This document shows positions 568 through 51,589 of a stretch of DNA of 64,000 nt, in pieces. The notes under the pieces are model-generated. The model was given only the letters and a program-made list of their open reading frames with translations, was not told the DNA's origin and ran no database searches. Numbering within the stretch: position 1 is the first letter of the stretch; each line of letters opens with the position of its first letter. The translations under genes were made by a program, and so were the position numbers. Source of the stretch: Bryoerythrophyllum caledonicum (Eukaryota; Streptophyta; Bryopsida; Pottiales; Pottiaceae); NCBI GenBank assembly GCA_963971425.1, contig OZ020521.1, positions 2,606,501 to 2,670,500 of the forward strand. Reading direction: 5' to 3'.

Positions 568-2212
568 TTAACTATTAAGCCGTTCGTGGAATGTATAGAA
601 ACAACCCTTTTGGAAACACATAGGTTGGTTTTCACATATAGGACAATAGCACCGAGGCCTACTTATGTTGCAGACAACACAAATTCCACGAGGGCTCTCC
701 GCGAATATTGGATAACAAACATTTTGTGGGCGATGAATGGCTTCTTCTCTTCGGAGCCAATTGTTTGTCAACGCCTTGCACAATTCCACTCGGAATTCTA
801 AATGTCTCAATGGAATTCTAGGTGGAGAACAAGCTTTGCATTTTTCAACATAGAAAATGAACATATTTACTATAGTCATATCCAAAAGGAAGAAAAAAAC
901 TCTATGCCACCATTTGTGAGTCCGATTTTGAGTAGAATAAGATGCACGAAGTTGGTCGGCGGCGTCCACACCCCTCATGTATGTTGTATATTCCAAATGA
1001 ATCGGTGAAGTAATAATATTTTCACGAACGGCTCCATTACGTCGAGGTACGGTATCTACGGGAAATACTGGGAGACTCCTTGGCATTGCATGAGTAGAAA
1101 GTAGAACAACCGGTTTTTTGTCTTTCCATATGACACTAGAATTTTTTTGAGATGTATGCATTCTCCATTCATATTTCCCTTGCGGTTCCTTTGCAAATGC
1201 TTTTGTATTCTTACATATAGCGGGTATTCCCACTCTATTGGTACGAATTGTACCTGTGGCATATATGCCACGATTCAATAAATCTAGAAAAAGCCCAACA
1301 CTTGTAAAATAGTTGTCCATTACCATAACATGTCCTTTATGTCCAATATTTTGAACTAAATCTATAACCACATTGTGAGCTAATCTTGGCTCTCCTCGTG
1401 AAGTAGATGATGAAGGTTCAATATTTTGTGTTTTCCCACAATAAATCTTAAAATTCCATACATACTACTTAGTAATTGAGCATGCAAGGCACCAAATTTT
1501 AATGCCCGACTTTTGCGGCTTTTGAGGCATATATTGCCGCAAAGGACAATAAGTTCCTTTATATCTAACCATCATCTCATCAACCGTGCAATATTTTTTT
1601 TAATTCCAAACATTCATGCATTTCTCACGAATGGCATCTATGAGCCATCTAACTTGTCCCAATTTATCATATCCGGGTAGTGTTTTGTCGTTTACATAGT
1701 TTTCTGGATTAGTAATATGAAGACACCTCAAAATGCTCAAAAATCGATCCCTTCGCATAAGTTGTGAAATAATTGGGCAATGGAAAATGGTGCCTTCATT
1801 GTTCCAATAAGACTTCATGTTCGGTTGTCTTTTCATACCCATATATAAACAAATTGCAAAAAAGACTTGCAAACTTGAAATAGTAACGTCCTCCCAATTA
1901 CGACCACCAATTGTCTTTCCCGAAGAGTCCACATGTCTAGCATACCGATTGGTTTCAAGTACAATATTGTTCAATAATACTTCGGGCCAAAATAAGTGAA
2001 AAAGTTGCATAATGGATAGAAAGAATCGCCAAAATTTTGTAGGGCCAGATGGTCCAGTAAACTCCATAGGTGTAGGATTATATGTTGAGTATTGAGTTTG
2101 CCATGTTGACTCTCGATACAAATACTTGATGCTTTCATGATTCTCATTGTCGTCACTAGAAGAAAAATGATCTTCTACTTCATCAATATCTCTTGGTTGC
2201 GTAATATTCTCA

Positions 2213-2412
2213 NNNNNNNNNNNNNNNNNNNNNNNNNNNNNNNNNNNNNNNNNNNNNNNNNNNNNNNNNNNNNNNNNNNNNNNNNNNNNNNNNNNNNNNN
2301 NNNNNNNNNNNNNNNNNNNNNNNNNNNNNNNNNNNNNNNNNNNNNNNNNNNNNNNNNNNNNNNNNNNNNNNNNNNNNNNNNNNNNNNNNNNNNNNNNNNN
2401 NNNNNNNNNNNN
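2213..2412. other. Assembly gap of 200 N
   Basis: Exactly 200 unknown bases, probably a standard-size scaffold gap. It abuts a GC-rich tandem repeat inside the piggyBac N-terminal region, so the gap was most likely caused by that repeat. The true missing length is unknown. Confidence 0.95.
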
Positions 2413-2600
2413 CGCCCTGTTGGCAGGCGGTGCCAGCGGGCCCGCCCTGGAATGCGGAGCCTGGGAGCCTGCCCTGCTGGCAGCCAGCGGGCCCGCCCTA
2501 GGACTCCCACTCATTCCTTCAACCCCACCATGACACCGCCCAGCCCCGGTCTCCAGCTGGACCTGGCCTAGGTTTTGGCCCTGGCCCTGTGATGCCCCGG
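2413..2600. repeat. GC-rich minisatellite next to the gap
   Basis: A GC-rich island in an AT-rich element. The block CCAGCGGGCCCGCCCT occurs twice about 55 bp apart, each preceded by a GCCCTG(T/C)TGGCAG-like block. On the minus strand it reads as an Ala/Gly/Pro-rich segment absent from normal piggyBac transposases, so it is probably an expanded tandem repeat running into the gap. Confidence 0.6.
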
Positions 2601-2828
2601 TTTCCAACAGGCCAACAACGACTTCAAATTCCTCTCTTCTCCATGATTCCTCTCTGTGTTGCAAATTTGCTATATTTTCCGTATCCATAAAACTAAAATC
2701 ACTTCTTTCACCACTCTCAAAAATTCCAATTCATCACAACTTGATTCACGGCCTCCCATAATATGTTCTTGAGTTTGCAAAAAAGGAATGTTGTCATAAG
2801 TATTCTCTTCAACCAACAAAGAGTGATG

Positions 2829-8819: not shown

Positions 8820-10463
8820 CAGTGGCAAGCACAAGTATTCGGACAGAGAGGCATCTTTCATAAATATGTCCATTGTAGCGTAATTAATGAGTTGGTAAGA
8901 TATTTTTTGGGCTTGCTTTAATTAACACACCACATGACACCTAATTAACATTGATTCGTTTAAAATTTGACACTTGTAGAGATTACACATGCAAAGATCA
9001 TGAAGAGGTGTGTACGACTTATTATGCTCACAAGATGTGCACACCACAATCTTCTCATTACATGTCCATTTATAAAGCTTTATGTTGTGAATTTTTTTGG
9101 TAAGATTTGGAGAGGCCCTTGGAGAGTAGCCATGGCTCCTAAAAGATTTGAGAATGATCATAGAACAATTCTTGAAATGTATGAGCGAGGGAACTCATAT
9201 AGAGAGATTTCAACAGTTTTGGGCATTCCTCAAAGCACTTGTTCTGACATAGTGCGAAGGTTTCGTGAGAGAAAGACCTTGAAAGACAAAGCTTCTCCTC
9301 GTAGACCTAGAATTCTTGATGAACGTGGTGACCGTGACGTTGTGAGGAGGTTAAATGATCCACATTCTAGTATAGCTGTAGCTGTAGGACGTGCATTTCG
9401 ATCTGAGGGTTTGCGATTGAGTGATGATACGGTGAAAAGAAGTCTTCGGAGGCAAGGGCTGAGAGCATGTGTGAAGACCAAGAAGCCACTTTTGACAAAG
9501 AAGCATCGAGCTTGTCGTTTGCAGTGGGCAAAGAAGTGCAAACATGCAACTTGGGAAATTTGGAGTCATGTCATTTTTTCTGATGAGTCCAAATTCAATC
9601 TTTTTGGCTCGGATGGACATCAATATTGTTGGAGAAAGTGTGGAGAGCGTCTTTTAGATCAGCAGGTACAACCTACAGTTAAATATGGGGGATGAAGCAT
9701 CATGGTTTGGGGTTGTATGAGTTGGGAAGGAGTTGGCAAACTTCATTTGATTGGAGGGAAGATGGATAAATTTGTATATAACAATATTTTAGAGACATAA
9801 CTTATGGGCACTATAAAAATGCAAGATTTAGAAGAAGATCATGTTTTTTTTCAACACGACAATGACCCAAAACACACTGCACATTATGTTGTAGATTGGT
9901 TGTGTGCTCAAAAGTTTATCACTATTGGGCATCCTCGACAATCACCTGACCTCAATCCAATAGAACATCTTTGGAATGAAGTAGATCGTCGTATGAGAAG
10001 GTCTGAGAGGAAACCTACTAGCAAAAGTGACTTGTGGGAGAAGATTCAAGAGATTTTGTACAACATAGAGGTTGATGTTGTTAGGAAGTTGATATGCTCT
10101 ATGCCTCAAAGAGCTCTTGATGTCTACCAAGCAAAAGGTGGATATACACGGTGGTAGTGCTTGTGAGTACTTAAGAGCTAAATCATTGAGTAATAAAGTT
10201 ATATTCTAACTTAATATCTTGTTTTCTATAGCTGATATACAATAAAAAGAATTCGTGCATAAAGAGTTGGACAAGCTTGTTGCACATACGAATTATTGTG
10301 TGTTTTTCTAGTTCATACTTTCATTGAAAACTTTGTGTTTTATATTTGTTGCATCTATATGCTCTGGTGGTTATATTCTTGCTATTTTATGACAATTCAT
10401 GTGGATGTGGTAGCTAATTTTCTAAAGAAGCTTCTCTTGTACGACTATTTATGCTTGCCACTG
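8820..10463 (+). mobile_element. Tc1-type element, 1644 bp
   Basis: Terminal inverted repeats are CAGTGGCAAGCACAAGTATT and, reversed from the right, CAGTGGCAAGCATAAATAGT, with TA at 8818-8819 and 10464-10465. The related sequences at 13.97 and 15.63 kb preserve the empty site (CATGCATTTATTCTC-like, reversed), which proves a TA duplication on insertion. It contains one transposase gene. The element is younger than the repeat it landed in. Confidence 0.92.
9132..10157 (+). pseudogene. Tc1-family DD34E transposase, two stops
   Basis: About 340 codons in a single frame from MAPKRFENDHR to GGYTRW. An N-terminal helix-turn-helix (REISTVLGIPQSTCSDIVRR) binds the ends. The catalytic core has D in VIFSDESKF, D in FFQHDNDPKHT and E in NPIEHLW, with 34 residues between the last two. 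SIMVWGCMSWEGVG is a classic Tc1 block. Two in-frame stops (9693-9695 and 9797-9799) are the only lesions seen, so the copy is fairly recent. DD34E Tc1 proteins are typical of animals, fungi and oomycetes and unusual in plants, where DD39D mariner-like elements dominate. Confidence 0.93.
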
Positions 10464-16900: not shown

Positions 16901-17039
16901 AATAAGGGTTTAGGGTTTAGAATTTAGGGTTACATGTGTGTCCCCAAAAAAGTGACATATTTTTTTTATTGTTTTGAGGTGACCAATCCCCCCATTTTGG
17001 ATAGTTGTGAATCCGAGTATGTAATAAAATCTAATTATC

Positions 17040-17424
17040 CTATCACGGTTTGGGAGATATAGGTAGTTTGACTTTCCAAATTTGAGTTGACTTTTTGGAC
17101 AATTATGGGCACAATTTAATTTCGGTGATTTGAGTAGTTTCACTTGCCGTGGGTTCTTGATGAGATTTGTAGGGACAGATGCCACAAGCAACTTACTAGA
17201 AAGGAAAAAAACCGGCGTTGTATCGTGATCTGATACAGTTTTATATTCCATATCATCAGGTCGACTAAAAATTGCTTGGATTTTGCCGCAACGGCTCCCA
17301 GTCCTAAAGTATGCTTCGTTAGTTGAAAAAGATAAATCATCACCCACAAGAATGGCTTACATGGCTCCAGTTCTGCAATCCACCTGCCGTGGCTCTCCCA
17401 ATCTTTGTCAATGTTAGGTGCCAT
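17040..17424 (-). pseudogene. Fragment related to the RGR-repeat protein at 49.4-51.3 kb
   Basis: From an ATG at 17424 the minus strand reads MAPNIDKDWESHGRWIAELE, then after a frameshift near 17340 DDLSFSTNEAYFRTG, SRPDDMEYKTV, FLSSKLLVASVPTNLIKNPR. Every block aligns in order with the N-terminus of the protein starting at 51256 (MAPPLPIERRWEEYGWWIA, RPDDMVYAV, LSKKLLLAPVPTDLLQNSRR). Only about 110 codons remain. A CpG-rich 21-bp array lies 400 bp upstream. Function unknown. Confidence 0.75.
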
Positions 17425-17820
17425 AATGCCGTGACATTCTAAAAAGCTAAATGTCATTACCATACAATAGTAACTGTTTACATGGTATAAAATTACTTCT
17501 TGAGACTTGCTTGTTTAGTTTTCTAATCTAAAAGATAATCAATCAACATCAAAAGATGATTCTTTAACGTTGCGATACAATGTGTATGATTTCTAATTAA
17601 ACTTCAATTTTATCAAAAATTGCACAATTTCCTAATTCTAAAGTTAGTATACATGCCATCCAGATGAAATGACCTCCAAATGAAAGATGACCGCTAGGTG
17701 AAATCAGGGTTGTTCCGGCATCCGTCCGTCCGGTAGTAACCGTCCGTTCCATAAAGGTCAACGCTGGTTTGACCATGACTAGAGGTAAATCAATGTACCC
17801 ACTACCACGAAGGCAACTAC

Positions 17821-18170
17821 GTGGCAGACACGGCGACTACAAGGTCGCGCGCCTGCAAAGTGAGGGCGGACGTGTGTAGGGGGCGGGCGCTTACGAAGAT
17901 GGGTCGGGCGCATACTGGGAAGAGCCGGGCGCATATAGAGAGGGACCGGGCGCGTACCGTAAGGGCCGGGCGCATACAGGGAGGAACCGGACGCGTACCG
18001 TAAAGGGCCGGGCGCATACCGTGAGGGGCTGGGCGCGTCCGAATAAAGTCGCGCGCGTGTTAAGGGTTGGACGCATTCATGGAGGGGGCTGGGCCGGGCG
18101 CGTGGCGTCTGGGGGCGCGCGCGTACGGGTATGAGATTCAGGGGTCGCGCACGCTCTTGACGGCTTAACA
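17821..18170 (-). promoter_or_regulatory. 21-bp array 1, pointing to the minus strand
   Basis: At least eight consecutive units are exactly 21 bp long, each with a core G(G/A)CCGGGCGC(A/G)T followed by 10 variable bases. Degenerate units extend to about 18165. On the minus strand the core reads GCGCCCGG. It lies between the 3' end of the kinase gene and the start of the minus-strand fragment at 17424, so by orientation it belongs to the latter. It is strongly CpG-rich in an AT-rich setting. The minus strand stays open through it (heptads such as YAPGP), but the same openness occurs in several frames. Confidence 0.7.
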
Positions 18171-18279
18171 TGCATGAACTTCATATCGCAATGTGTATGA
18201 AAAATGTTATTCTTTTATTTATCAAGAGATCGGCAAAACACACCGTTACATCACAATGCTAGTACATATTGCAAAAGGA

Positions 18280-19907
18280 TCAAAAATTTACCTTGACAGT
18301 CAAAATACTAAGCCAAAATTGCGATATCTCATAGTGGAAGCAAGCGTCCGGAACGTCAAAGTTGAATGGTTTTGCCATTAGCTCGTCAATCACTTTGGAG
18401 GCTGTCAGACGTTTGATTGGATCTCGCTCCAGTAATTTGTCGATCTTCACTTGAAAAGCTGCGTAGTTGACGGTTGATTTGAAGAATGCTGAGTCAGATT
18501 CTTTTGCCCAAAGCGCTCTAGCTATCCATCCAACAGAGTATGAATCGGCGAGCTGGGTGTATTGGTATTGCCGTTGCATCACATCCAAGGCCGTTTCCGA
18601 ATTTTGTGGGCCGAATTTGTAAAACAACTCTGGAGCTACCCAATGTCGTTTACGACGTTGATTGTCAAGCTCCGTCTCAGTCCGGAATCCATATTTTGAT
18701 GGCTCTTCGTGTGACACTCGGCTCGCAATTTCCCAGTGACAAACGCCGATGAAGACGGACCCTGGTTCCCTGGAGGAAAGTGGAGAAGCACGTTTGTGGG
18801 AGCAATGTCATTGTGAATGACATTTGTCTTGTGGACTTGGGCCATGGTGCACATCAAAGCCCAAGCAAGTCTTGCTTTATTCTTCCGAAAGGCTAAAATT
18901 TGTACAGTATCGTCGGCCGAAATGTATGAAGCTGAAAGGACTGAGTTGCTCGAAGCCACGGGATTTGCCTTTGAATCGACGGTTTTAAAATGGGCCCAGC
19001 TACCACCATTCCACCACAATGTGTACGCCTCCATATTCTTTGTATTCACCGCCCAAAACTTTATAACTCTTGGCTGTGCAACAATACATATCATGACCTA
19101 GTGAGACCGTTGTCTAAATTTCTCCTTTGAATGAGACGCCGTTGGCATTTTCCCAGCAAACTCCATGTATGCCGAAATGGCTCTCACACCCACGATGCGG
19201 ACCTTTTGGACCTTTCCGTATCCACCAACGGCATCAAATCCGGAAAGTCTATAGACTCCAATATCTTCTGGAAGGAATTGCACGCTGTGCAACATATGCA
19301 TCTCCATGGCCGACTTCATTGCTTGTTCATTCCAAGGCATGCCTCTCGTACAAGAACTTGAAAACTTGCCGATTGTACTCTTTACATCTTCAAGGAACTT
19401 GCGGAGTTCCAAGTCTTCAAGCAGATGCTGGCTTCGACAAGGTTTTTTCACCTCGCAATCGAATACATGCGATGCATTACTCGTGCATTGAGTGATTACT
19501 CTCTCCATGAATGAAGCATAGTGGTACATAGCATATGCATCCTTGTACAATTCAGAACTCTCCAAAGCGCGCTCGAATTTTAACTGGAGGCCGGCTTGTA
19601 GGCGCATGATTCCTGGCTCTCCCTTCTCCAAATAAACTTGACGGAATCGCACCACGTCAGTTTCACACCACCGACGATAATATTGTATTGCTACACCTCG
19701 AAGAAATGCGGTATACTCCTGTGGTAGATAACCCGCATCCTTCTCGTAGGGAGACATTTTTTGATTCGCCCTCTTGGACGGTGCCTTCGGTTCATCGGAA
19801 GGATTGCGGCTTGACTCTACAACGTTAGTAGGTGGAAGATCAGATGCATCTGGAGCATCTAAATCAACATACGCGGGCCGCTTTCCAGTATTAGGATCAA
19901 TGGCCAT
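18280..19907 (-). pseudogene. Protein-kinase-like gene, broken
   Basis: About 540 codons from MAIDPNTGKRPAYVDL to the stop at 18280. The first 220 residues are an unassigned N-terminal domain. The kinase fold follows: Gly loop GGYGK (about residues 228-232), EFAGK (candidate ATP-binding Lys), catalytic loop VIHNDIAPTNVLL with the catalytic Asp and metal-binding Asn present, WVAPELF for APE, and RLTASKVIDELM near the end. The DFG position reads HWE, so the metal-binding Asp is lost. One in-frame stop (19098-19100) and one frameshift (about 18765) break it. Minus-strand TATAAAG at 20077-20071 lies 164 bp upstream of the start. HNDxxPxN kinases form expanded families in non-seed plants as I recall. 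Confidence 0.8.
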
Positions 19908-20070
19908 TGCAATAATTGCAACCCTACACAAACTAGAATTTAAAAAAAAAAGGCAAAACCTCCCCCCATGTGTGGTGGCTCCACTCTTAGTTCCTAGCAA
20001 AGTACGAATAGTACTAGGACAAGGAGCAACTTGAGAGGAGCCTATGTGAATTGAGAATATAATCTGTCCC

Positions 20071-20591
20071 CTTTATAGTCGTTTGATTAAACCAACCTGT
20101 CGCATGCGCGCGCGGATGCGCTTGACCGTTGAATCCCATACCCGTACGCGTGCCCTCCCAGATGTCACGTGCCCAGCCCAGATTGGCAGGCGCTCGGCCC
20201 AGATTGGCACGCAACCGACAAAGACTGCCACGCGCACGCCATGGATAATGACGCGTTCGGCCCAAAGTTCCCACGCGCCTGCCCTACATCAGTACACGCC
20301 CGGCCTACACCAATACGCGTCGATTCCGGATTGGAACGCGCTTGTCCTACACCAGTATGCGCCCGGCCCGTATTGGGACGCGCCCGCCCTGTCTAATGAC
20401 GCGCCCGGCCCCACGCCAAGCGCAGACCCTCCCTTATCCACGCGCTCGACCGCCATGTGTGCGCGCAGCCTTAGATTCCATGCGCCCGACCCTAAATCGT
20501 ATGTAGGTGATCTCCAGCAAATGCGCCTGGTCTCCATACGACATGTGCCTAATCTCCATGCCGCATGCACCCTTGCCCATCGGTATAAATA
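20071..20591. promoter_or_regulatory. 21-bp array 2 between two divergent TATA boxes
   Basis: Minus-strand TATAAAG (20077-20071) faces the kinase gene, and plus-strand TATAAATA (20584-20591) faces the RING-family gene. Almost everything between them is one array of roughly 20 units of about 21 bp. The core is (A/T)(C/T)GCGCCCGGCC and the remaining bases vary. The last units keep only an ATGCGCC/ATGTGCC/ATGCACC core and run right up to the plus TATA box. Core orientation matches the plus-strand gene. The layout reads as a bidirectional promoter with helically phased binding sites. Confidence 0.75.
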
Positions 20592-20864
20592 GTCGGTCGC
20601 GCCCAACCCATCTCACTAAACTCCATTTGGAAATCGTGGCTTTCAACTATCCTTTTAAGATGGCTGATTGCGTAATCTTTGATTGGGGCTCCAGATTTGC
20701 ACACTAATGACGTATTGCATTACCTTTGTTTAGGGTTTGTAATAATTAATATCACTACCTTGGATTATTTTGAAATCCAACGTGGTAATTTTCTTTTGCT
20801 TTTTTTGAACCAGAGCTTAGCGTAGTTAATGGATATTTTGGTAGATTTTTTTAATATTCGCACC

Positions 20865-22838
20865 ATGGAAAGTGAGAGTGAGCCAGAAGCCCAGCAGCAG
20901 CCACCAATGTCTTGCGCGCAGAGGAAGAGGGAGAAAGACAAGGATAGGCCGAGGCACGGGAAACTCCAAAAGAAGCGGATGCACGTGTTCAACAATCCAA
21001 CGAAAGTTGCATTCCAAGGTTGGGAAGATGAGCCATCGCCATGGTCTCTCCTCACTTGTGATGATTACAACAAGTGGTGCTACTTGTCAAAATTGTTTGC
21101 TCCACACTTCCATTTGATAAATCGTCGCACAAACAAGGGAAACTTGAAGTATTTCTCCAACGAGCAGTTCCGAACTCGTGCCCTCCAAGCGCACCAATAC
21201 TTATACAAGCTTGAATTCATGGCCCGCAATGACTGTCCCCTCCATGTTGCTTGCATGGTATATGCTGAGGTCATTCTCAATAAGCAAGTGGATTGGAAGA
21301 TTGTGCGGAAAACTCCGAAAATGCCAAGGGTGTGGATGCATTCCAATATGCCTAGGGAACAACATCGAAGGTTTTCGTTTACGGCACTAGGGCTACAGAA
21401 AGCGGATGGACTAAAAGAAGTACCTCTAGTAGAATCAGATTCATCACCTGATTTAGACTCTGATGGATCGGTTGGTCGACGTTCACCAATTACTGCAGTG
21501 GCGCGTGCTTCACGAAAAAAGCGGCAACGAGTAAAGCTCCATCAAACAACACTTGCGATGGTTCAAGGAGGTGGCCAAGAAGATTTACCAATCGTAAATC
21601 CTGCTGGCAATGATGAACCCATAGTCCGCCTTGCGGGTGTTGGAGATAAGAATCCATCTATGTTATGGATGAAATGTCAATATTGGATGTTATAGTCACC
21701 ACTTTCAACTTGAGGCATGTAACATCAGGGTCCGGAAGTACGGTTGTCGATGCTCACCGAGAATTATTGGACACTATAAGCTTGAAGGATGAGATAACTT
21801 AACGTCTCCAAGTAGAGATTGAAAACCTCAAGCTGCAATCCACTGTAAAGGCTGATATTATCACCAAGCAAATAGCCGAGATAAAAGAGCTGCGTCATCA
21901 CGATGACCACACTTATCGTGAGCAAAGCTTAGAAGGAGCTCCAAATGTTCGTGGTCATTCTCAAACTGTTGCGAGTCAAAGTAATATTGGCGGTATTGCT
22001 CAAAGTCTGAATGACACAATTCTCGACACTCTAGTTGGCAACATCACTAGCTGTTTGCTAGAGACCTCGCCGAGACCACAACGTCAACGCTTCGCTAGTC
22101 GTCCATCTGTTTTTCCACCACCGGTGATTGTAATAGCGCTGCCATTTGTGGATCCCATCGGTATTGAGGATTCTCTATCATTTTTCTCATTCAATCCAAG
22201 CATGGAACTAGTTTAGCTTCGCACTGCAAACGAAATCCTTCGAAAAATGATTGGATCAATGGGCAAGCAATACTATCAATGGAAGGTGGCATGCATCTTG
22301 AATATTGACCGTGCGAGACAAATGGCTATAGAGTTCAAGAAGATTGACAACAATTACATGACGTCAAATATGCGTTGTGACTTTGGACTCACATCTTAGG
22401 CACACATTGATGAGATGTTTCCAAGTGAATTGCTAGTGCGTGATGGTAGATCTATTGACTAGGCAAAGTGGGGGTGGAACCACACAGAGGCTATGTCTTC
22501 TCATGCCCTTCAACCAAGCGGAGACGTGGAAGCACGCAAGTTATAGCCAACACCAGCAAGCTTCACGCAAAACGGAGATGATTGCTCAGTTTGTTTAAAT
22601 CCTTTCGGGCCAGAAGGTGCATATGCTCTTGGCACATGCCGGTGTTTATACCATCCAATGTGCTTCCTAGGTGGTCTCTTGACACGTAAATTTTGCGCAA
22701 AGTGTAGAGCACCATTTCATGAGCGCTTATATGATTTGTTTGGCCTCACCACCTACATGCCACCTAGTTGGGAGTTGAACCCGGAGATTGTACTTGGGGA
22801 GGCCTATGCTCAAAAGTGGGGAGAAGATTTGGTGTGAA
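20865..22838 (+). pseudogene. Unrecognised family, copy A: coiled coil plus RING-like finger
   Basis: Begins at CACCATGG (20865). The N-terminal domain (KLQKKRMHVF, WSLLTCDDYNKWCYL, NLKYFSNEQFRTRALQAHQYLY, VYAEVILNKQVDW) is shared with copies B and C. A coiled coil follows (RLQVEIENLKLQSTVKADII), then a C-terminal zinc finger at about 22580-22690 with CSVC, CRCLYHPMC and CAKC, a RING-like spacing. A frameshift near 21.67 kb and five in-frame stops (21800, 22214, 22397, 22460, 22544) make it a pseudogene. Four of the stops are TAG. A related frame may continue to 23199. The finger suggests a ubiquitin-ligase-like role, which is inference only. Confidence 0.7.
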
Positions 22839-23544
22839 ATTAGCGTGCAGGGTGCCACCAGCTAGACCAGTCAAGTGTAAGCACGCAAATTGGTTGGGAA
22901 AATGACCACAAAGAAATTGTACGAGTTTGCAAAAAGCTGCGGCGGATGTTGATGAGCGAAGCTTCTTCTACCGAGTTGTGGGCGGTCATGGAGTGCTAAA
23001 CGCAAGCTATTCCAATTTAGGCGACATCCAGATGGGAAACTATGAAATCACCAGGGACGTGTGGTATCAGAATTGGGAGAGGCCATTGATCCTGACCTTC
23101 GCAATGCCTTGCAATGGGAAGAACTCTAATGAAAGGAAATTTGGAAGGAGGAAGCAATTGACTTCCTTCTTGAGGAACTATGTAGTCCGGCGACTATGAA
23201 GACTCTCAAAGTACTTTGGAATTCATTCATGTTACGTACTCTAATAGACTCGGATGGGCCTCACTAGAGGACGCGAGCGGCTCATAAATTGCTTGATGAT
23301 GGGGCTGGAACAAGTGGTGAACCTAGTGGAGCTGATGCGTGATGAAGTGGAGCATAGGCAAATAGAATGCAGATGAAGGCGTAGCATTCATAAACATTTT
23401 GTATGTTGCGGCATTGTCAAAGGCAATATAAGGACATGTTTAAAGCGGTTATCCAATTCGAGTAGTTGACTTTGAAACACTAAAATGATTTTGTAACATT
23501 TAATTTCCTCAATTTGCAAGAACTCAACTTTACATAGATATCAC

Positions 23545-23865
23545 ACGCCCGACCCAAAGGCGCGCGCATACGTACGCACCCAATCCTGGGTTGAGCGCAT
23601 GCGTCCGCGCCCGACCGTGTCTGTTTGCGCGTGCGACCCATACATCACGCGTACGAATCAAAGACGGCACGCGCCCAACCCTTGTTCGCTCGCGCCCGGC
23701 CACAGACTCGACGCGCTCGGCCTCCGTTCGTACGCGCCCGACCCCGTTCATACGCGCCCAACCATGATCTGTACGCGCTCGGCCACAATAAATGTACGCG
23801 CCGGATCATGATTGGTACGCGCCCGTCCCAGCTCGTTCGAGTGCGGCCTAGGATCGCATGCGCAT
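23545..23865 (+). promoter_or_regulatory. 21-bp array 3, upstream of copy B
   Basis: About 15 units, mostly 20-22 bp, with core CGCGCCCGACC or CGCGCTCGGCC on the plus strand. Copy B starts 170 bp further on. The DNA between array and ATG aligns with the same region of copy C (CTTTGGCCTGCA, GGGAAGTGTTT, ACGGTGTCTATTGACACC), so promoter and leader were duplicated along with the gene. The TATA box seen in copy C is not preserved here. Confidence 0.75.
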
Positions 23866-24417
23866 CTACCATAAGTTTGAGAATTGAACGACAATGGGCC
23901 CACTTTCCAGGCGCTTTGGCCTGCAACTGCTATGTGGCGGCTGCTTGCTTCGTACTATAGTCTATTGGGAAGTGTTTTACGGTGTCTATTGACACCCTTT
24001 TACTCACGGCACCGCTTCACGTTGGTTCTAAGTATGAATTCAAGTGGTCATTTTGAGATTCGGAATACCGAGAAGAGAATGAAGAACGACTGAGTAATGC
24101 GGGTCGGGTACGCAACCACAAGCAGAAGAAACGCCTTCACATATTCATCGATGATGAGTTGAAAGCATTCGAGGCTGGGGAGATAAACCAAGTCCGTGGA
24201 CATTTATAGAGTGTGCAAAGTATATTGTCTGGTGTCATTTGGGACCAATGTGGCCGCATTCGCAGTATTCGCAGTATTCGCAACTTTGGCGGTACGACAA
24301 GGGTAACTTAAATTACTGTACCAATGAAGTGTTCAAAGAGCGGTGTATCCAAGCGAACCAACACATCTACAACAAGGCAAAGGTTCATCACAACAAGGTG
24401 AATCTATCCATTATAGA

Positions 24418-26127
24418 ATTCTTCTGCAAACCTCTTGGATATTCTAGAACAGAATTCAGGGACAGAAAGAGCCTTGACCTAGAATGAAGATACCTGCTTC
24501 TTAAGCTCTTCTTGCCACCATTTGTGGTGCGCTCATTACGTTGTCGTGGAGAGAGAATTTGCCTTGGGAAAACACCGGGTTCTTGGCTGCTACCAACTTT
24601 GGTCAAAATATTAGGGAGGTGCTACAACTTTAAACTTCATCAATAAATAAAGATAGATAAGCCCTGATCTTCATCAAAATTCAAAATCTTGGTTCATCTT
24701 GATTAACTCTTGCAAGTAGTCAAACATACTAGTTGTATTAAATTAGGACAATAAAACCCCTCCTCACTAAAACAGACTCTTCTACCTCATCAATAGTTAT
24801 ATACTAATATGCAATAGCTTTCTAAAAAGCTAATATAGTAAGGCTTATATATCCAAAGTTTCAAAATCAAAATATCTTTACAACTATTCCTATAAAGAGT
24901 CAAAGTCACTACTCTAAATTGCTCAAGGTAGCCCGACCATTCCCCACTCAGACTAGCATAACTTTTGCAATAAAATTTGAAATCAAGTTTGTAACAGCTT
25001 TCTGTAAAGCTTAAAACAAGATAAACAAATAATCAAGTTTCAACTCTACTGGCTCTATATATAATGAACTATGGTTGCTCAAAGTTACTGATTGAAACTT
25101 GTGAGAAAAAAACCGCTCCTCCGAGAACACTACTTCAATCGATCAAGTGCCAAGGTTCCATAACAACTCGGATTTGAGCTTGTAATGGCTCATTGAAAAG
25201 CTTATACAATCACCTTTATACATATAAAGTTTCACTATCTCAATCTTTGTATACAAATTTCTACATAGAATGAAAGTTACTGCTCTCGAAAACTCATGGC
25301 AGCAATACCCTCTTTATTCAAATCCACACCACAGCTTCTGTATAACTCTGATTGGAAGGTGTGATAGCTTGTTGAAAAGCTATTAACAAGATCTATGACA
25401 CTCTAAAAACTGACATCAAAACTCAAAAAACTCTACATGTCCCTCTAGAAAATCCGAGCCTCTTTTTATACTAAAGGGAGGAGGCTTTGGCCGAGGGAGG
25501 AAGGAAGAAAAATCAAGGGCCTAAATCAACCCATTCCTCTCTAGCCTTCTGTTTTACTCAACTTGGTCACCAAAGCCCATTTACCTTCAAATCTCATCCA
25601 TAGCTTCCCACATAAGCCTAGTTTGACTTTAATTTCCTAACCTATAACTCTACTACAAGTTGGTACTGTATTTCTATCCCTAAACTAACCCCCAAACTTT
25701 ACAGTTTTTATTTATACTACAAACTATAATACCATAGCACTCTGTTTAAGTTTTTGATCTTAGAAGAGTTAGAGAATGGCTTAAATATCATTAGAGCCCA
25801 CGTATTGTCATCGACCGCGACTTGGTTCGATTGGCTGAGCATTTCGTTGCACCTTGCCGGTCCGAGTTCGATTCCTTGGCTTGTTTGAGCGGCTGGCGCT
25901 CGCGCAGTTAAGGGACTGCTGGAATCAACACGAAAATCAACTGGTGGACGCTCCTAAACCCTGAGCTAGTCACAAGATGTAGTAAAGATCCTCTAAGATA
26001 AGCTTCTGGTCTAGTAAAGTAATTGAGGATAAAGCCGTTTATTCTCCACAATTACCTTAACCAGCTACATTCCCCACTTTTCTTCTCAATCTTATTTTTT
26101 TATATTATGAATTGTATCACATCACAA
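24418..26127. mobile_element. Non-coding insertion of about 1.7 kb in copy B
   Basis: Copy C is continuous where copy B is interrupted, so this block is an insertion. It has no coding capacity. A motif of the form AGCTTnnTGnAAAGCTn recurs about every 160-180 bp (near 24815, 24993, 25185, 25367), which gives it a repetitive texture seen in some plant LTRs. It could be a solo LTR or a small non-autonomous retroelement. I could not define terminal repeats. The end near 26.1 kb is an approximate breakpoint. Confidence 0.45.
25800..26105 (+). mobile_element. Possible tRNA-derived SINE
   Basis: GGTCCGAGTTCGATTCC at about 25858 is an excellent Pol III B box, and TTGGCTGAGC about 30 bp upstream is a fair A box. 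A unique body follows and the segment ends in a T-rich tract near 26100. It lies inside the larger insertion in copy B. No target duplication was identified, so the call is tentative. Confidence 0.35.
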
Positions 26128-26700
26128 CAACGTATGGTGTGCTCGAAAGTTATACTTGGAGTAGTAGTCGATTAGAGGACAATGGAAATACAGCCAAACT
26201 CCAAGATGACACCAGTATCCACGACGACACTATCAATAGAGCGCAAGTTTCCAGGCGAAGCTTTAGGAAAAAAGACAAACGAGGTTGAAGTTCCAAACGA
26301 GGAAGTTGTGTGGTCTAACACTTCCAGTGACGACTCGGACACTGGATGCGACCCATCTTATTGCAAGCAGATTGAAGGCTTTATTGAATGCCAATGGCTC
26401 AATTCTGCCCTCTAAGAAACACCGACAATTGGAGAAGAATCCGGCAAGGAAGAAGATGCGGCTGAGATGGACGCCGTTGCATACGAGAACATCAATGAAA
26501 ACCTAGAGTCTTCGGATGATGTTCCAATTGGCCGCGAGGTTCATCTTGAACTTCTTGCTAAATATGAGCAGAGTTTACAGAGAAAAAAAAATCTAGTAGA
26601 TGAAGCCAGCCACAACAAATAAGAACTTTGAAAATTACGCGCACAACTCCAAGGATAAGGACGATCAAATTTAGGAATATGCGAAGTTGGTGTTTACTTT

Positions 26701-27940
26701 AAAGTTGTAGAATTTGATAGCAATGGAAATAGTGCCATGAATGATAAATGGGCAATTTTGTAATATTTAGAAATTATAGACCTCGAGAATTTTGTAATTC
26801 GCACTTCATTTGTAAATGGCTTGAGTTCAAAACAATGTTGTTTATCTATGATGTTAATCAAGTTTTTATGGTTCAACATGTTTTGGAATTTGAAACATGT
26901 AATAAAGTGAATGTTGTGTAAAATCTTGTATACGTTTAAATTAAATATTTGATGACTATATATTGATCTTCCATGATTGTACAACTTCATGCACTCCAAT
27001 CAATAAATTCACTTTTGTCTATTATTATTTATTCAATTCACTATTGTCATAATATGAGATTGCCGTTAAATTTGAAAATCCACTAGTGACTACAGTAGAA
27101 TAATTGAGAATTTTTTTGTAGTGGAATTTATATGATGTGTGGTAGAATAAAACTTCAATTTTGTCTCAAACATGCATGATTTGTACGTTTCATTGTGAAG
27201 ATAATTGATCATTGAAGACTAAACAATAAAAATCATGTTACTTACTTGCATAATAAATGATTTGTGATGTATCAAATTCCCCAATATTAATGCAACATTA
27301 TTATTCTTGGTTGAATATTAGATTATATGTAAATAATTGCTACGGCCTTCCAAAATGATAAGTGATGGCATTCTACCATACAAATTATCCATCTTATATC
27401 TAAATATGAGTATAAGTTTGTCATACAAATCAATTTCCATGCTAATTGAAGGTACCGACTCTCAAAAAAAAATCGGTAAGAAAGTATAAGTATTGTGTTT
27501 ATAACATTTTTAGAAGATGTTTTAAAAACATTATAGTGTTTGACTACTTTCCTTGAACATTTCAAAAATATTGGATTGTTAATGTTTTATTTGTACATAA
27601 ATCAAATTTTCACTACATGCTCAAAGATTTTTGGAAGATAAAAGTCAATTCATTTGAGCCAACCAAACAAATTCACTAAATTGTAAAAGTGCCAAATATG
27701 TTATTATATATCGTAACAGAAATGAAAATTTTCACATACAAATACCAATCTACCCACTCTATGCAATTTTTACTTTTATAGAATTCATGGGTACTGCAAA
27801 TTAGTTTGGATATTTAGATGACCCGTCATGTAAACTTGATTGCTGTTGACATTGACATTTCTACTTGTTGGAAATGGAATTTTTGAATTTAGTTTACATC
27901 AAGTTCTCCCCACTATGCTCGTGCTTGACACAAAAATGTG
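26701..27940. other. AT-rich intergenic DNA
   Basis: No gene, repeat array or element end recognised. Short open frames here are leucine- and isoleucine-poor shadows of AT-rich sequence. Confidence 0.5.
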
Positions 27941-27944
27941 CACG

Positions 27945-28081
27945 CCCGACCCTGCTCGAACGCGCCCGACGAGTCTCGTCTCATACGCGTGCGGCCGGAT
28001 TGCGTACCCGCGCAGGCATCTCGTATACGCGCGCCTCTAGGTTGTATGCGCCTACCATAGGTCACTGGTTTTCTATAAATA
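27945..28081 (+). promoter_or_regulatory. 21-bp array 4 plus TATA box, upstream of copy C
   Basis: Six to seven units with core CGCGCCCGAC, CGCGTGCGGCC or CGCGCGCCTCTAGG, spaced 19-25 bp, end about 20 bp before TATAAATA (28074-28081). The start codon of copy C follows 150 bp later. The arrangement mirrors that at 20.1-20.6 kb. Confidence 0.7.
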
Positions 28082-28230
28082 TGCGCTTTCCTAATTTTGG
28101 TCCCCACTTCCTATGCACTTTGGCCTGCAGCTGCCACTTGGTGGCTGCTTACTTGGCACTTTTGGGAAGTGTTTCACGGTGTCTATTGACACCTTTGTAT
28201 TCCCTCCACCTCGTCATGCCAATTTAAACC

Positions 28231-29163
28231 ATGGATCCTGGAGAGCCATCTACCACTCGCAATTCACTCGAAAAACAACAACGTGATAAACATCACGCAC
28301 GCAAAAAGCAGAAGAAGCGTCTTCACGTATTGATTAATGAAGAGCTGAAGGCATTTTCTGGTTTGGAGGTTGTTCCAAAACCGTGGACATTTGCACAATG
28401 TGCAAAGTATATTTGATGTTGTCATTTGGGGCACCTATGGCCATACTCGCGATATTCACTAATGCTGCGTACAAATAGGGCCGACTTAGGCTACTACACC
28501 AATGAGATCTTCAAGGAGCGTTGCATCCAAGTGTACCAACATATTTATGACGAGGCCAAAGTGCGTTGCAACTCGGTAAAATTTTCTATTTTATGGTTGG
28601 TTCATGCGGAGGTGGTACTTGGCATACCGGTTGATTGGAGGACAATGGAAATCCAAACATTCCAAGATGGCGCCAGTCATTGGATTGACAATACCGTATG
28701 TGCAGAAGTTTCCAGGAGAAGGTCTCGGGAGAACCATGGAAGTTGAACCTTTGAATGACAAAGTCAAGTGGTCTGAAACTTCAACTGACGACTCGGATAC
28801 TGGATGTGATCCTTCTGTGCGTAGGCAAAAAGAGTTATCCTTCAAATCAGGCTTGAGCAAAGAGCCGTCGATTTCGGAACAAGATGGTAAAGAAGGGGAT
28901 GCCTCAAAGACGGATGCGGTACCTGAGGAGGGCGTGGATACAAACAAAGAATCTCTGGAGGGTGACTTGGTAAACCGTGACAATTATCTTCGAGTTCTAA
29001 ATTGACTTCAGCAAAGTTTGAAGATAATTGAGGATCTAAGAGAAAAAGTTCAAGAAAAAGAAAAAGAAATTCTGGAATGCCATGAAGATATTCAAGAACT
29101 GAAGGAACAAGTTCGGGACAAGGACCGTCTTCTTGCATTTCTGACTGGCTATAGTGGAGTTTA
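28231..29163 (+). pseudogene. Same family, copy C, nearly intact
   Basis: Starts at ACCATGG (28231). N-terminal domain KKQKKRLHVLINEELKAF, WTFAQCAKYI, DLGYYTNEIFKERCIQVYQH, VHAEVVLGIPVDWRTM matches copy A. Lesions are a TGA where copy A has a Trp codon (28414-28416), a frameshift near 28450, a change of frame near 28660 and a TGA at 29003. The end (LREKVQEKEKEILECHEDI, ELKEQVRDKDRLL) is a strong coiled coil closing at 29163. There is no RING-like finger, so copies B and C are either shorter members or have lost it. Function unknown. Confidence 0.7.
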
Positions 29164-29467
29164 GAACTACAATAGTGCTAGAAATGTATATAGAGCAATG
29201 TTGAAACATTTTGGAACAAGAGCCTTCGGCAATTTTGTAACTGCCACTAAACATTGAGTGAAATTTTGTAGGTTCAATTAAACCTTGTATATTGAGTGAC
29301 ATCTTAGAAAATTGCGGATCAAAATTTACCCTATACCTTGTATATTTTGTGGAATTTTATAAGATTTTTGATATATCAAAATGTTAAGTGTTGCAATGTT
29401 TCAATTAATCGACGAACTAGTGCAAACCTTGAAGTATTTTGGAAGAATCTAAAACCGCGTGGGCTCA

Positions 29468-29610
29468 ACCTTTAGGGTACGCGCCCGACCCCACATTGTG
29501 CATGCCCGACCAAACATAGAACGCACCCGACCTCACATTGTGTGCACCCGGCCACACAGAGAACGCGCCCGACCCCACAGCGTGCGCGCCTGGCCCCACA
29601 CGCTCCTGCT
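29468..29610 (+). promoter_or_regulatory. 21-bp array 5, upstream of the hAT gene
   Basis: Six consecutive units of 21 bp: core CGCGCCCGACC, CATGCCCGACC, CGCACCCGACC, TGCACCCGGCC, then 10 variable bases that alternate between CACATTGTG-like and ACAGAGAA-like. The period is almost exact. It lies about 200 bp upstream of the hAT start, in the same orientation relation as the other arrays. No clean TATA box follows. Confidence 0.75.
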
Positions 29611-29806
29611 CTAGCACTATGTAAGAACCATATGCGATGTGCTTGACCCCCCTCACATCTTTGGCTTCGTGTCCTAGAACTCCTTATTGGGCTCTTTGCA
29701 CGAATCTACAAGTTTGTGAGTGACCTTTAGGTCCACATTTTCTATCAGCACATAATTTCCTATTACTTTTGGTGAACTGTTTTTGGCACAATATTTTACC
29801 GATTTT

Positions 29807-30965
29807 ATGGTGATGTCGTCCCAACAAATGGCTCAAACAAAGGAGAGGGCCCCATGGTTCACATTTAACAAGAAGGATCAAGTGACATGTGTTTGGTGCA
29901 ATTACACATTTGCATACAAACGTGGGAGGTGCATGTCACACTATGGGCATCCACAATGGACAAAGACTTTGTGCACTAAGGCCCCAACAGCTGTTAAGCC
30001 CTGTTTTAAAAGATGCGATAATATTATTCCTACTAGGATTACCGAGGCGGAGATCATTGGCCTTCCTAACGCACCAGCAACATGTTCCACTGAACCTTGT
30101 CTTAGCCAATCGATCCAATAAGGTAGTTTTTGGAAACTCGAAATGAGGAGAACGCGCAATCTACAAATCCTCCAAGCCAAGCAGCATCATCGACGCCAAG
30201 ATTTGTACGACAACGGAGCTTCCTGGAGGCTTACCAACTTGAAAAACGAAAAGAGTTGGACGAATTATAGGCACAATTTTTTTATGAAGCAAACGTTGCA
30301 TTCAACGTGGTTAGACATCCGACCTTCATTTAGGCCACACTCTCAACGTCAAAGGCGGGTTTTGATTATTCACCGCCATCATACAATGCCATGAGGACGA
30401 CATACATTGAGCCCCTATAAAAAAAGTGAAAGACCTTGTTGACAAGAAGACCGGTGTAGATATTGCCAAGTATGGGGCAACAATATGCTCAGACAAATGG
30501 GACAATGTTATCCGTCATAACATGAATATCATGCTCGTATGTCCAATGGGTGATATCTTCTTGGGGTCTATTGACACCACGGGTATGAAGAAATCTAACA
30601 CATATATAGGGGACCAATTGAAATTTTTTTATTCAAAAGCTTGGACCATTGAATGTGGTCCAAGTGTGCACCGATAATGTTTCAAACATGTTGGTGGCAA
30701 TGAAGAAGGTCACCGAGGAGTACCCGCACATATATACTCAAGGATGTTGCGCACATATTTTGGACCTCCTCCTCGAGGACTGGGGGAAGGAAGACATATT
30801 TGCAGACCTCGTCCAGAAGGCGAAAGAGATTGCATTGTATATCCCGAACCACCATGTGCCCATGACTCTTTTTCGACGATTTTCGCCAAAATTGTCTCTG
30901 TTGTGGCCGGCAGCAACAAGGTTTGCATGCAATTACATAATGATCCATTGACTCTTGGAAGTGGA
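29807..30965 (+). pseudogene. hAT-family transposase (BED finger, DUF659), broken
   Basis: MAQTKERAPWFTFNKKDQVT, CVWCNYTFAYKRGRCMSHYG is a partial BED-type zinc finger that would bind transposon ends. Then FFYEANVAFNVVRHPTFI, DYSPPSYNAMRTTYIEPL and the DUF659 core ICSDKWDN, FLGSIDTTG, VCTDNVSNM, CCAHILDLLLEDW, ending near TRFACNYIMIH where the dimerisation region would follow. It is split over at least three frames with several stops, and the C-terminal dimerisation domain is missing. Its promoter carries the same array as the kinase/RING-family genes, which is odd for a hAT element. Confidence 0.8.
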
Positions 30966-32481
30966 GAATGCCCTGGATATGGTTGTGCTAGACCTAGCAT
31001 AGATACCTATGTATCCTCTCTTTTCAAACTGTAGTGCAAAGAAGTTGCCGTAGAAGGTGGTCGAAGTTTGTTGAAAGTGTTTAGTAAGATCTTAGAGAGA
31101 GTTTATGTCTCACTTCAAAGGTTGATACCTTTCAATCTTTGTGGTCAAACTAAACAAAAAAATTATCACACACACTTGTACAATCCTAGTAGAAGATCCT
31201 ATGGTTAGATATGTAAAAACTTTGTTTATTTTCATTTTGTGTTGAATGCATTGAAACTAGTAGTTTTCAGTGAGTTTGGTTGCTAAAGTGTTGCGGCCCT
31301 TTAGGGGTTCATCTTTTCATCTTTATACATGTAGTTCCAATTAATAAAGTCATTTGATGTATACTTGTATGGCATATGCCTCAACCTCCTCCATCTCTCA
31401 TTTTCTTTATATTCTTGCAATAAGTTGTCTGGAATGTGACACATGTCTCACTTCCCTCCCTTTCCTAATAACAAATAATAGTGAAGGAGGGTAGGAACAT
31501 GCCTATCTCTCTACTATTAAATTGTTTAATGATTTTGTGGTGATTAAGAGCCTGGGAGGAAAGTAGGAACATGCCTATACCTTCAATCTCCTCAATGTTT
31601 TATAGTTTACGGTTACAAAGTGAGAGGTAGGCACTCGCCAGCCACTTCTACCCATATTTTGACAATGTTTTATTGTTTTGTGGTTACATGGAAGGGGTAA
31701 TACCTCCTTCACTATTTTTTTGAGTTTACATAGGAGAGAGTAGGCACTCACAATATTTCAAGATTATCAAATGTTTTTGGATCCAAGAAGAATGTTTTAG
31801 AAATGTAGCTTTCTCCCCCTATCAATGACTATTTTCCACACAAGATTATAAGAATTTAACCACGATGTCTACTTCCCTAAACTAGTGTTTTATAAGAGTT
31901 TTTTTCAACATTGTGTTTACATTGGAATAAGAATAGAGATATTTTGGAATGACCAAAATTTCTAAATTATTAAGGTGGATAGTACAAAAGTTTGTTTAAC
32001 ACAAAAAAAAAATCATGGATTATAGTCTTACAGAATGGTGTGTATTGGTTTATAATCTGCACATATCAACCATGGAGGAGTGCATGAAAAAGCTATCACA
32101 TATGGTGTTGTCGGTGGTTTATGTACACTCCACACAAGAGTGGATGGTCATAAAGAAAATGAGAGTGGTATCAGCAAGGCAAAAGGTTGTCCAATTCCAC
32201 CAGTGACTTTGCAAATAAGTAATGTACTTTACAAGGTTATTCTTAGGGTCCTTCATACTACAGGCTAAGTCCAAAAGTAGTGGCTGATCAAATTGCCTAG
32301 TACATGGTAACATTTTTTTAAGAGCCCTTGCATCAAGACAACAACCTCATGAGTCATAATGGAGTAAGTTCATTCAAACAAGAGTGGAAACCCAAAATCC
32401 CTCTGGCAAGCCATTTATAATTCAAAAGTAAAATGAGGCTCTTGGATTAGAAAGCGCTAGTCGTGCTCTAGAATATTTTAA
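30966..32481. other. AT-rich, no gene recognised
   Basis: Between 31440 and 31770 there are several degenerate copies of a unit containing GTAGGAACATGCCTAT or AGTAGGCACTC and a TTTTGTGGTTA block, about 100 bp apart. A short plus frame near 32080 (EKAITYGVVGGLCTLHTRVD) is not assignable. Confidence 0.35.
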
Positions 32482-49393: not shown

Positions 49394-51256
49394 TTATTTT
49401 TCTATTACAAGACGTTGTGTAAACAAGAAGCCGTTTTCGTAGTCCTTGCTGACTTGAAGGGCAGCTTCAAAGCACTCATTGCTGGGATTCCAAGCATGCT
49501 TGGTTAGGTCCTCCATGACCTTTGCCAATGTGGACATTGTAATCTTGTTGTCATCTCTGTGAGGCAGTTTCCGCACGGCACTTGCTGCGCTCACCAGTTC
49601 GATAGCCTTACGTTCATCGTCCGCCCGAACCGAGCTATCAGGCCTACCTTACAGATCCCATATCTGTCGGAGCTTCACCAAATCCTCATTCATTGTGGAA
49701 AGTTGTTTTCTTTGCCACTCCGCATTATTGACCTGTACTGACTTGTTAATGTAAAGTCGTCGATCATCGTACACAACAAAGGTAGCCTCCCGCTCCTCAA
49801 ACGTCTTCTGATACTCAGACAGAGGGATGTTGCCGCTCATCCACTGCTCCTTCGCATACTTGGAAGCAGCTACGACGTGTTGCCCGTCCACAGGCTCCCA
49901 AATGATACGCTCTTGAAGCCAAGATAGTTGAGAGCCCGCAGTACCGTGTATAGAAGCACCCGCATGGCTTAAGAACATCCGTTCAAATTCTCGTGCTGCT
50001 CCAGTAACCGGGAAATCCACTCCCTCACGTTCAACCATGCCAGTGTCGGTAGTGATATCCACGAGGTACCGGATTGGACGAAGTACCAATTTACTCACTC
50101 CGGTCCTGTTCTGGGGATCTCGTAAGAAGTGATACACTTCTGATTTCCTCTTCTGTGACAGTATCCGATGGTTTGTCTCCGGATTCACCACTTCGACGAT
50201 GCGGTCAATGTGCGCCTTGAACACAATGTCGCCCCATATAGAACCTCTCGCAACTTCCTCCTTCGTAGGTACGGGCGCTTTCAAATGCCTAGAAGTTGGA
50301 ACGGTTGCTGGAATGTCTGCCTCCTCCTCCGAATCTCCCAATGACTGATCAGAATAGTTGTGCAAGTCGTCATCCATGGCCGATAAACTCATAGAGACAC
50401 CCGCTGTAGATGTTGAGGATCTACGATGAGTTTCGGCTTGTCCAGCTATCGATTCACGGCCCCTGCCACGCAATGGCGATGTCCTGCCCCGCGACGTCGA
50501 TGCCCTGCCACGCAATGTCGAGGCCCTGCCACGCGATGTCTCTGAGCGGCCACGCGATGTCTCCGAACGGCCACGCGACGGCCGTCCATCAGAATCTGGA
50601 GCTCTGTTGCCCTCTTCACGTCGTGGGCGCTTAGATGGACGACCACTTGTTGGTGCACGAACACGCGATGGTGGCAGTTCAGTGGACGGCCGCCAATCCA
50701 ACTGTGTCGGCCTTGCTAATGCGCGATAAATGGGCTCGGTCTCCTCTGGATCCGCTGGTAGACTTGCACGCTCAACACTTGCACGCTCTGGCTCCGTCCG
50801 CCGTAATGCCTCGTTCATGGTATGAACACTCATAAATCTTCTAGCGCGTGCCTCATCCTCTTCAGATAACGCCAAACATGCCAACACATGCTCATGCCTA
50901 GCAGTGCGCACCGCAAGATCCGTGCTGAGCCAAAACGTCTGTAACGAGGTTATGTTATTCACCCGCCTTGAATTTTGAAGGAGATCTGTAGGAACAGGTG
51001 CTAGGAGCAACTTCTTTGAAAGAGAAGTCTTTGATGCCGTTTGGCCAACCCCCGGTTCGCAAACTGCATAGACCATATCGTCTGGTCGAAGATTAATTGC
51101 ACGAAGTTCAGCGAAGGGCTTCCCCAATGCTGATGTGCGCATCCCTATTTGAAATGGATGTTCCGTGAGCCACAATACTGGCTTCGACTCCGCCTCTACT
51201 GCAATCCACCAACCATACTCCTCCCAGCGCCTTTCGATTGGAAGTGGTGGCGCCAT
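49394..51256 (-). pseudogene. Unrecognised RGR-repeat protein, one stop near its end
   Basis: From MAPPLPIERRWEEYGWWIA at 51256 one frame runs to 49649 (about 535 codons), and the same frame continues past a single TAA to 49394 (KLPHRDDNKITMSTLAKVME, RLVIEK). The N-terminal domain (SKPVLWLTEHPFQIG, LRPDDMVYAVCEPGVG, LLLAPVPTDLLQNSRR) might be a reader-type fold, but I cannot name it. The middle has heptads RGRSETS/RGRASTL from a 21-bp coding repeat, likely nucleic-acid binding. The C-terminal half (GSIWGDIVFKAHIDRIVEVV) is unassigned. A decayed relative with a promoter array lies at 17.0-17.4 kb. It could still be a working gene ending at 49649. Confidence 0.6.
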
Positions 51257-51589
51257 GATGTCACATACAAGAAACCTGATCATAATCACAAACAATATAC
51301 AATCGTCAATACGGTGTATGTTCATATACATCAATGCTTACACCTTCTAAGAAAAATACACAAAAGCATCATGTTACAACTCAAATGTGGCTTCCTTGAC
51401 TTGTAAAGGTAAACCCCTAATTTTTAAGACTCTACAAAATGTCAATTTTTAAAATCATTAGTCCGATTTTTTTTCTTTCACACTAGATGAAAACACACCT
51501 AAAAAGTTCAAATCTGAAGTTGGAATTCCAAAAAAATTATTATTTTGGAAGTTATTAACTCACTGTTAAGTGAATCTGCGGAAATTACA
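51257..51589. other. Upstream flank of the RGR-repeat gene
   Basis: AT-rich, no array of the 21-bp type, unlike its relative at 17.4 kb. No clear TATA box close to the start. Confidence 0.35.

Follow-up and report, generated by a model that had tools for sequence, protein, structure and literature searches.

The locus examined here raises the question of what one short repeat is doing in five separate places. It lies in a 64,000-nucleotide stretch of Bryoerythrophyllum caledonicum DNA (contig OZ020521.1, positions 2,606,501–2,670,500), hereafter the window, in which five arrays with a period of about 21 bp had been described as standing in front of five genes. An earlier note took the repeat to be a promoter module common to unrelated genes, and offered either a regulon or a mobile promoter as its explanation. 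We found that the five arrays are parts of one decayed, 3′-truncated copy of a hAT-superfamily transposon, located at about 17705–31025. The mobile promoter was the better description, in that the promoters move as parts of the transposon.

Five arrays in one decayed copy

All five arrays are present on the strands claimed for them and have a common core, ACGCGCCCGRCC, with unit spacings of mostly 20–22 bp. At two or fewer mismatches, arrays A through E contain 11, 10, 9, 3, and 4 core sites, respectively, every one on the claimed strand; in 200 control sequences having the same first-order base pattern, the means were 0.14–0.54. Core sites on the opposite strand emerge at three mismatches and number three in total (two in array B and one in array C). 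At this threshold, array A (17843–18154, minus strand) has 15 core sites, array B (20116–20608, plus strand) has 16 on the plus and 2 on the minus strand, array C (23543–23828, plus strand) has 12 and 1, and array E (29479–29595, plus strand) has 6. Array D (27940–28051, plus strand) is a weak array with 3 core sites. The motif said to adjoin two of the arrays was also found, with TATAAATA at the end of array B (20584–20591, plus strand) and 3′ of array D (28074–28081, plus strand). Past array E, TATGTAAG occurs at 29618–29625 (plus strand), and other copies have TATATAAG at the same place.

The claim that each array lies upstream of a gene and faces it holds for arrays B, C, D, and E. Array A is instead subterminal, lying past the kinase-like gene on its 3′ side and facing outward, toward the transposon end at 17705. 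Outward is the direction of terminal arrays, promoter arrays being directed at their gene, and array A is therefore terminal. The end it faces, at 17705–17842 (minus strand), is of the second of the two types described below, and consists of a terminal inverted repeat (TIR; CAGGGTTGTT), GTCCGTCC repeats, and a conserved subterminal stretch. This type-2 end is 91% identical to that of another copy, at locus L043, over 33 bp and over 111 bp. Adjoining it at 17697–17704 is GGTGAAAT, a candidate 8-bp target duplication. No mate for GGTGAAAT was found in the window, because the right end of the transposon has been lost; the type-1 end was likewise sought for this copy and not found.

The window at 17725–31025 is colinear with a copy on contig C1 (loci L046 and L045) through six long matching blocks of 79–85% identity, with insertions on either side. 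Five genes can be followed in this interval. The kinase-like gene (18636–20000, minus strand) is broken into open reading frames (ORFs) at 18636–19094 and 19098–20000, with homology continuing toward 18.3 kb, and array B lies between it and the divergent gene B. Gene B (approximately 20829–22840, plus strand) is broken and has an N-terminal domain common to C and D followed by a RING-like C-terminal part. Gene C (approximately 23990–26720, plus strand) is broken and split by ~1.8 kb. Gene D (28231–29164, plus strand), related to C and B, is broken as well. The hAT transposase gene, behind array E as its promoter array, is broken and represented by its 5′ part only (29807–31025, plus strand), the match to the other copy stopping near 31025. 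With the kinase, C, D, and transposase frames broken and the type-1 end not found, the window copy is dead. The ~1.8 kb within gene C (24416–26194) is missing from the L046/L045 copy and is probably a later insertion.

Elsewhere in the window, a second 21-bp repeat (50461–50578), by eye unrelated to the core, is inside an ORF (49649–51334, minus strand) whose coding frame has RGR-type repeats. A 681-amino acid ORF at 55212–57257 contains DUF7869 (156.5 bits). By eye, the window also has what we take to be a piggyBac-like transposase with a run of N (568–2688, minus strand) and, presumably, a fragment of a Tc1-like transposase (8967–9695).

The complete element and its genes

The genome (437,360,962 bases in 894 contigs) contains 559 + 562 occurrences of a strict two-unit array pattern, and none when the pattern is read backwards. 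It also encodes the SAM domain of LEAFY (104 bits), a protein not known outside streptophytes, in keeping with a streptophyte plant. The first 20 places of this pattern on C1 supplied a sample of 20 10-kb loci. The transposon has two types of end, in each of which a conserved stretch follows the array and terminates at ...GTCTATGTAGACAACCCTG (type 1) or ...GGACGGCCGAACAACCCTG (type 2). Both types have the inverted terminus CAGGGTTGT in common, a short TIR of the kind found in hAT elements. Genome-wide, at up to two mismatches, there are 453 + 463 type-1 and 288 + 286 type-2 ends, and backward controls gave no matches.

Ends were paired on C1 among the matches listed, which comprise at least 100 type-1 and 54 type-2 places. 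Within 25 kb, 18 pairs were correctly oriented and 2 wrongly. The 8-bp flanks of 17 correctly oriented pairs are alike at seven or more letters in 12 cases, eight of these being perfect, and at 3 to 6 letters in the other five; none of 272 cross-pairs is alike to the former degree. The eighteenth pair, at L043, has AGATCAAC on both sides, a perfect 8-bp duplication flanking the 2966-bp transposon in which the L043 arrays sit. The 8-bp target duplications together with the structure of the ends are marks of a hAT transposon. Two complete copies on C1 measure 13,852 and 17,047 bp by their mapped ends. We are very nearly certain of the resulting anatomy, which is that of a five-gene hAT transposon, large and of autonomous type.

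The order of the genes is fixed: the divergent kinase-like gene, B (RING-like), C, D, and the hAT transposase. This was seen among the matches listed on C1 (at least 56 kinase, 54 C, 56 B, and 62 transposase-promoter places). The kinase-like gene is on the opposite strand, 1.3–2.4 kb upstream of B, in 21 of 23 neighbors within 5 kb. For pairs no more than 6 kb apart, C lies 3′ of B in all 17 and the transposase promoter lies 3′ of C in all 20. B shares its strand with the transposase promoter in 16 of 18 cases. The ends fit the same map, with the type-2 end located 2.0–3.5 kb from B in all 12 cases, and the type-1 end correctly oriented relative to the transposase promoter in 14 of 16, at a distance of 4.13–4.15 kb in 9 of the 14. 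Scored matches genome-wide numbered at least 150 for the kinase piece, at least 145 for C, and at least 105 for the transposase piece (97 candidates).

Judged by its homologues, the gene behind array E is a hAT transposase. The homologue at locus L036 matches DUF659 (E=4e-35; 121 bits, cut-off 34.7) and Dimer_Tnp_hAT (E=9.3e-06; 25.8 bits, cut-off 21.4), and in three copies the frame stays open for 1072, 1111, and 1119 amino acids, with no stop in the matched part. A Pfam scan of the L036 piece at E≤1 gave no BED-type zinc finger, although the L041 and L045 pieces do show a CxxC stretch. For the kinase-like gene, the window ORF scores 17.8 bits against Pkinase, below the cut-off of 31.7, and the homologous L046 piece scores 38.2, above it. 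In the L046 copy, the RING of B is a weak match, at 16.0 bits against a cut-off of 27.3 (best PDB phmmer E-value 0.0015). The window pieces of C and D are 36–45% identical to B. The genes are therefore not all of different kinds, as had been claimed; three are related to one another, and all belong to one transposon.

The transposon is enriched on C1 (65.18 Mb, 14.9% of the assembly), which has 29 of 67 exact transposase-promoter matches and, among the scored places listed, 56 of 150 for the kinase and 54 of 145 for C. One possibility is that C1 is a sex chromosome; another is that it is heterochromatic.

Placement and possible role of the arrays

We propose that the arrays are binding sites for a regulator encoded by the transposon itself, a reading that in our judgment stands an even chance of being right. 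It draws on analogy with known systems and on array-free relatives of the transposon.

The placement of the arrays follows the transposon. Arrays near both ends face outward, and those before B, C, D, and the transposase face the gene. When the 40 arrays of the window and the 20 sampled loci were classed by the sequence downstream of them, 33 fell into five transposon contexts (15 type-1 ends, 6 type-2 ends, 6 transposase promoters, 4 C/D promoters, and 2 B promoters). The seven not classed consist of three in L043, an end array cut off just after the array (L045), a remainder of a B array (L046), and two in L035, parts of which match L043. Among these 40 arrays, none was recognized before a host gene outside the transposon, the two L035 arrays being unplaced. 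Orientation was also checked separately. Of the 58 places on C1 with a strict array, 29 have a listed feature downstream on the array's own strand, and 1 has such a feature on the opposite strand. The other 29 have no listed anchor downstream, as C/D promoters and damaged ends are absent from the anchors.

The cores themselves are regularly spaced, 300 of 386 core-to-core steps being 21 or 20 bp. Such steps amount to two helical turns, so that the cores would share one face of the DNA. The spacers differ by class, with a letter likeness of 0.560 within an array, 0.513 between copies of the same class, and 0.390 between classes, and the core is common to all; since the repeat units were selected by their core, only the spacer figures are independent of that choice. 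CpG-specific decay of the core was not seen in the window (C to T at 0.094 per site at CpG C and 0.113 at non-CpG C) or in the other loci (0.082 and 0.083). Two other origins for the arrays were rejected. They are not coding repeats, as 116 of the 386 core steps are not a multiple of three; an ORF passes through array B. They are also not a known structured RNA, with no Rfam match at gathering score in the window at 17000–32000.

Unit number varies widely, from 9 to 45 in type-1 end arrays. Runs of exactly 200 N occur in or beside arrays at L086, L087, L088, L089, L032, and L040. Assembly gaps thus seem to cluster in these GC-rich repeats, and array lengths are probably underestimated.

The outward-facing arrays at both ends would also suit sites for the transposase itself, reused at promoters for self-regulation, in the manner of TnpA and the subterminal repeats of Spm. 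Consistent with such reuse, the array stops 22 bp before the TATA box in four of the five transposase promoters examined, and Spm offers a precedent, as far as PMC2613891 and PMC10398659 describe it, in which one protein of the element both binds the subterminal repeats and regulates the element. We nonetheless find this explanation doubtful, owing to a miniature family that has both transposon ends and no array. Its representative, L085 (C1:61008858–61009124), is 267 bp long, and with 39 others, which are 82–87% identical to it at full or nearly full length, it makes up 40 scored rows across many contigs among 1533 first-look candidates. Of the two ends, the family retains no more than 85 bp at type 2 (89%) and 82 bp at type 1 (90%). 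The arrays thus seem unnecessary in cis for transposition, if the same transposase moves this family. The argument holds only on that condition, and L085, the one copy with a readable target duplication, has flanks alike at 5 of 8 letters, the three differences being transitions. Two further end pairs (472 and 479 bp) considered as array-poor copies were rejected, as they contain 200-N runs, which leaves the 267-bp copy as the only one counted as array-free. On the same condition, the GTCCGTC repeats of the outer ends would be better candidates for transposase sites than the arrays.

A second alternative has a host transcription factor binding the arrays, which would have been hijacked as an enhancer. 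The ACGCGC part of the core presumably fits the CGCG box of CAMTA factors, and the orientation of cores toward TATA boxes is one-sided. The genome-wide check of orientation proposed by the earlier note found the core 8–38 bases before TATAWAWG at 93 + 88 places (181), and in reverse orientation at 1 + 2 places (3), the latter equaling its own backward control of 3. Among the matches listed with sequence, 60 of 62 are one transposase promoter. The bias is therefore real, but it reflects shared descent, nearly all the listed matches being copies of one promoter and not independent. Host-factor sites would leave unexplained why the longest arrays are at the ends, distant from promoters, and we consider this alternative improbable.

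Passive tandem duplication without function, occurring in non-coding parts of the transposon, would account for the wide range in unit number, for the lack of a unit-by-unit alignment of array B between copies with flanks 81–85% alike, and for the retention of a strict array at a minority of exact type-1 ends (19 of 45). It would not account for the same core recurring in separate arrays with different spacers, for the predominance of 20- and 21-bp steps, or for the 181-to-3 orientation toward TATA boxes, and we judge it very improbable. A regulon, in which unrelated host genes have a promoter module in common, might explain the genome-wide bias in orientation and distance but can hardly be correct, because 33 of the 40 arrays are in named parts of one transposon family with 5 more in or at copies of it, and the genes are a fixed transposon set whose order is conserved on C1.

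Several observations weigh against binding by a regulator encoded in the transposon. The scanned pieces of B, C, and D have no Pfam family at useful scores, and the predicted fold of their domain, from four window rows, is unreliable (mean predicted local distance difference test score of 47.1), which makes a DNA-binding role for these proteins a guess. Cores occur on both strands in arrays of L035 (7001–7650) and L043 (6259–7968), and the orientation of arrays is partly built in, as they were classed by the sequence downstream of the core. Conservation of the core likewise arises in part from picking units by it. In the first 31 Mb of C1, a strict two-unit array is near only those 19 of 45 exact type-1 ends, the remainder having arrays that were lost, damaged, or unassembled, or being array-free copies.

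The accessory genes may have a working role in the transposon. Between the window and L046, the ratio of nonsynonymous to synonymous substitution rates (dN/dS) is 0.32–0.34 for the kinase, 0.36–0.54 for B, 0.46–0.51 for C, and 0.73 for D; for the transposase, it is 0.30–0.50 in the DUF659 part and 0.50–0.83 in the C-terminal part. The kinase, B, C, and DUF659 values count in favor of the proposal; gene D and the C-terminus of the transposase are without clear constraint. Shifted frames of the same alignments gave 0.36–1.47, and in 12 of 16 rows the true frame gave the lowest of the three values, often by a small margin. As single pairs of partly dead genes, these ratios are weak evidence.

If the arrays are indeed sites for a regulator of the transposon, they would be clustered, same-face predicted sites for a DNA-binding protein, probably of the B/C/D family. 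Occupying ends and promoters together, this protein would activate the genes of the transposon and, by the same occupancy, protect the transposon from silencing. The transposase itself would probably recognize the outer ~85 bp with the GTCCGTC repeats. More broadly, and with not quite an even chance of being right, we suggest tentatively that, separately from VANDAL and Spm, a hAT lineage arrived at a self-contained system of regulation in which B/C/D proteins (with a non-Pfam domain, and B being RING-like) and a kinase act through 21-bp same-face arrays at the ends and at the transposon's own promoters, for activation and anti-silencing.

Comparison with known systems

Ac/Ds and other hAT elements have hAT transposase domains, 8-bp target duplications, and a short TIR, and are typically a few kilobases long with one gene. 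The transposon described here has these domains, duplications, and TIR in common with Ac/Ds, and differs from it in its size of about 14–17 kb, its five genes, and its arrays.

VANDALs are Mutator-like; no Mutator family was found in the ten pieces scanned with Pfam. In Arabidopsis, where VANC proteins counter the silencing of VANDALs, the relevant parts of PMC5735166 and PMC10398659 describe a motif, YAGTATTAY, in elements with degenerated TIRs. The motif forms dense, fast-changing tandem repeats of one orientation in non-coding DNA, also upstream of the transposase gene (PMC5735166 and PMC10398659, same parts). The present transposon resembles VANDAL in being a multi-gene plant DNA transposon that has tandem arrays of a short motif, in the same orientation, in non-coding DNA (L035 and L043 excepted). 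Unlike VANDAL, it has a hAT transposase, 8-bp target duplications, and a short TIR common to both ends, and its GC-rich 12-bp core recurs at 21 bp in arrays before four genes and at both ends. A further mark of VANDAL is an element protein that strips DNA methylation after binding the motif, and the present transposon may have a counterpart to it.

In Spm/En, TnpA binds the subterminal repeats, is required for transposition, and activates the element (PMC2613891 and PMC10398659), and this activation is accompanied by a loss of DNA methylation (PMC10398659), according to the portions of these papers that treat TnpA. The likeness to Spm/En is in the repeated motif near the ends (PMC2613891, same portion), for which binding by an element protein is a feature of Spm and here an inferred one. 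The ends differ, being CACTA with 3-bp duplications in Spm/En and CAGGGTTGT with 8-bp duplications here. Moreover, TNPA sites are described in that portion as cis-determinants of transposition, whereas here array-free relatives exist.

Among titles and abstract openings in the open-access literature, which leaves subscription journals mostly outside, we found no five-gene hAT transposon with arrays of this kind. If our proposal is correct, hAT would join the few transposon groups, VANDAL and Spm among them, that have arrayed control sites and a protein that reads them, and the regulator would bring with it a protein domain without a Pfam match. The presence of the core at several promoters and at both ends, alongside array-free relatives in the same genome, allows a separation of sites for moving from sites for control to be tested directly. 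We propose that this transposon works like VANDAL and Spm without belonging to either.

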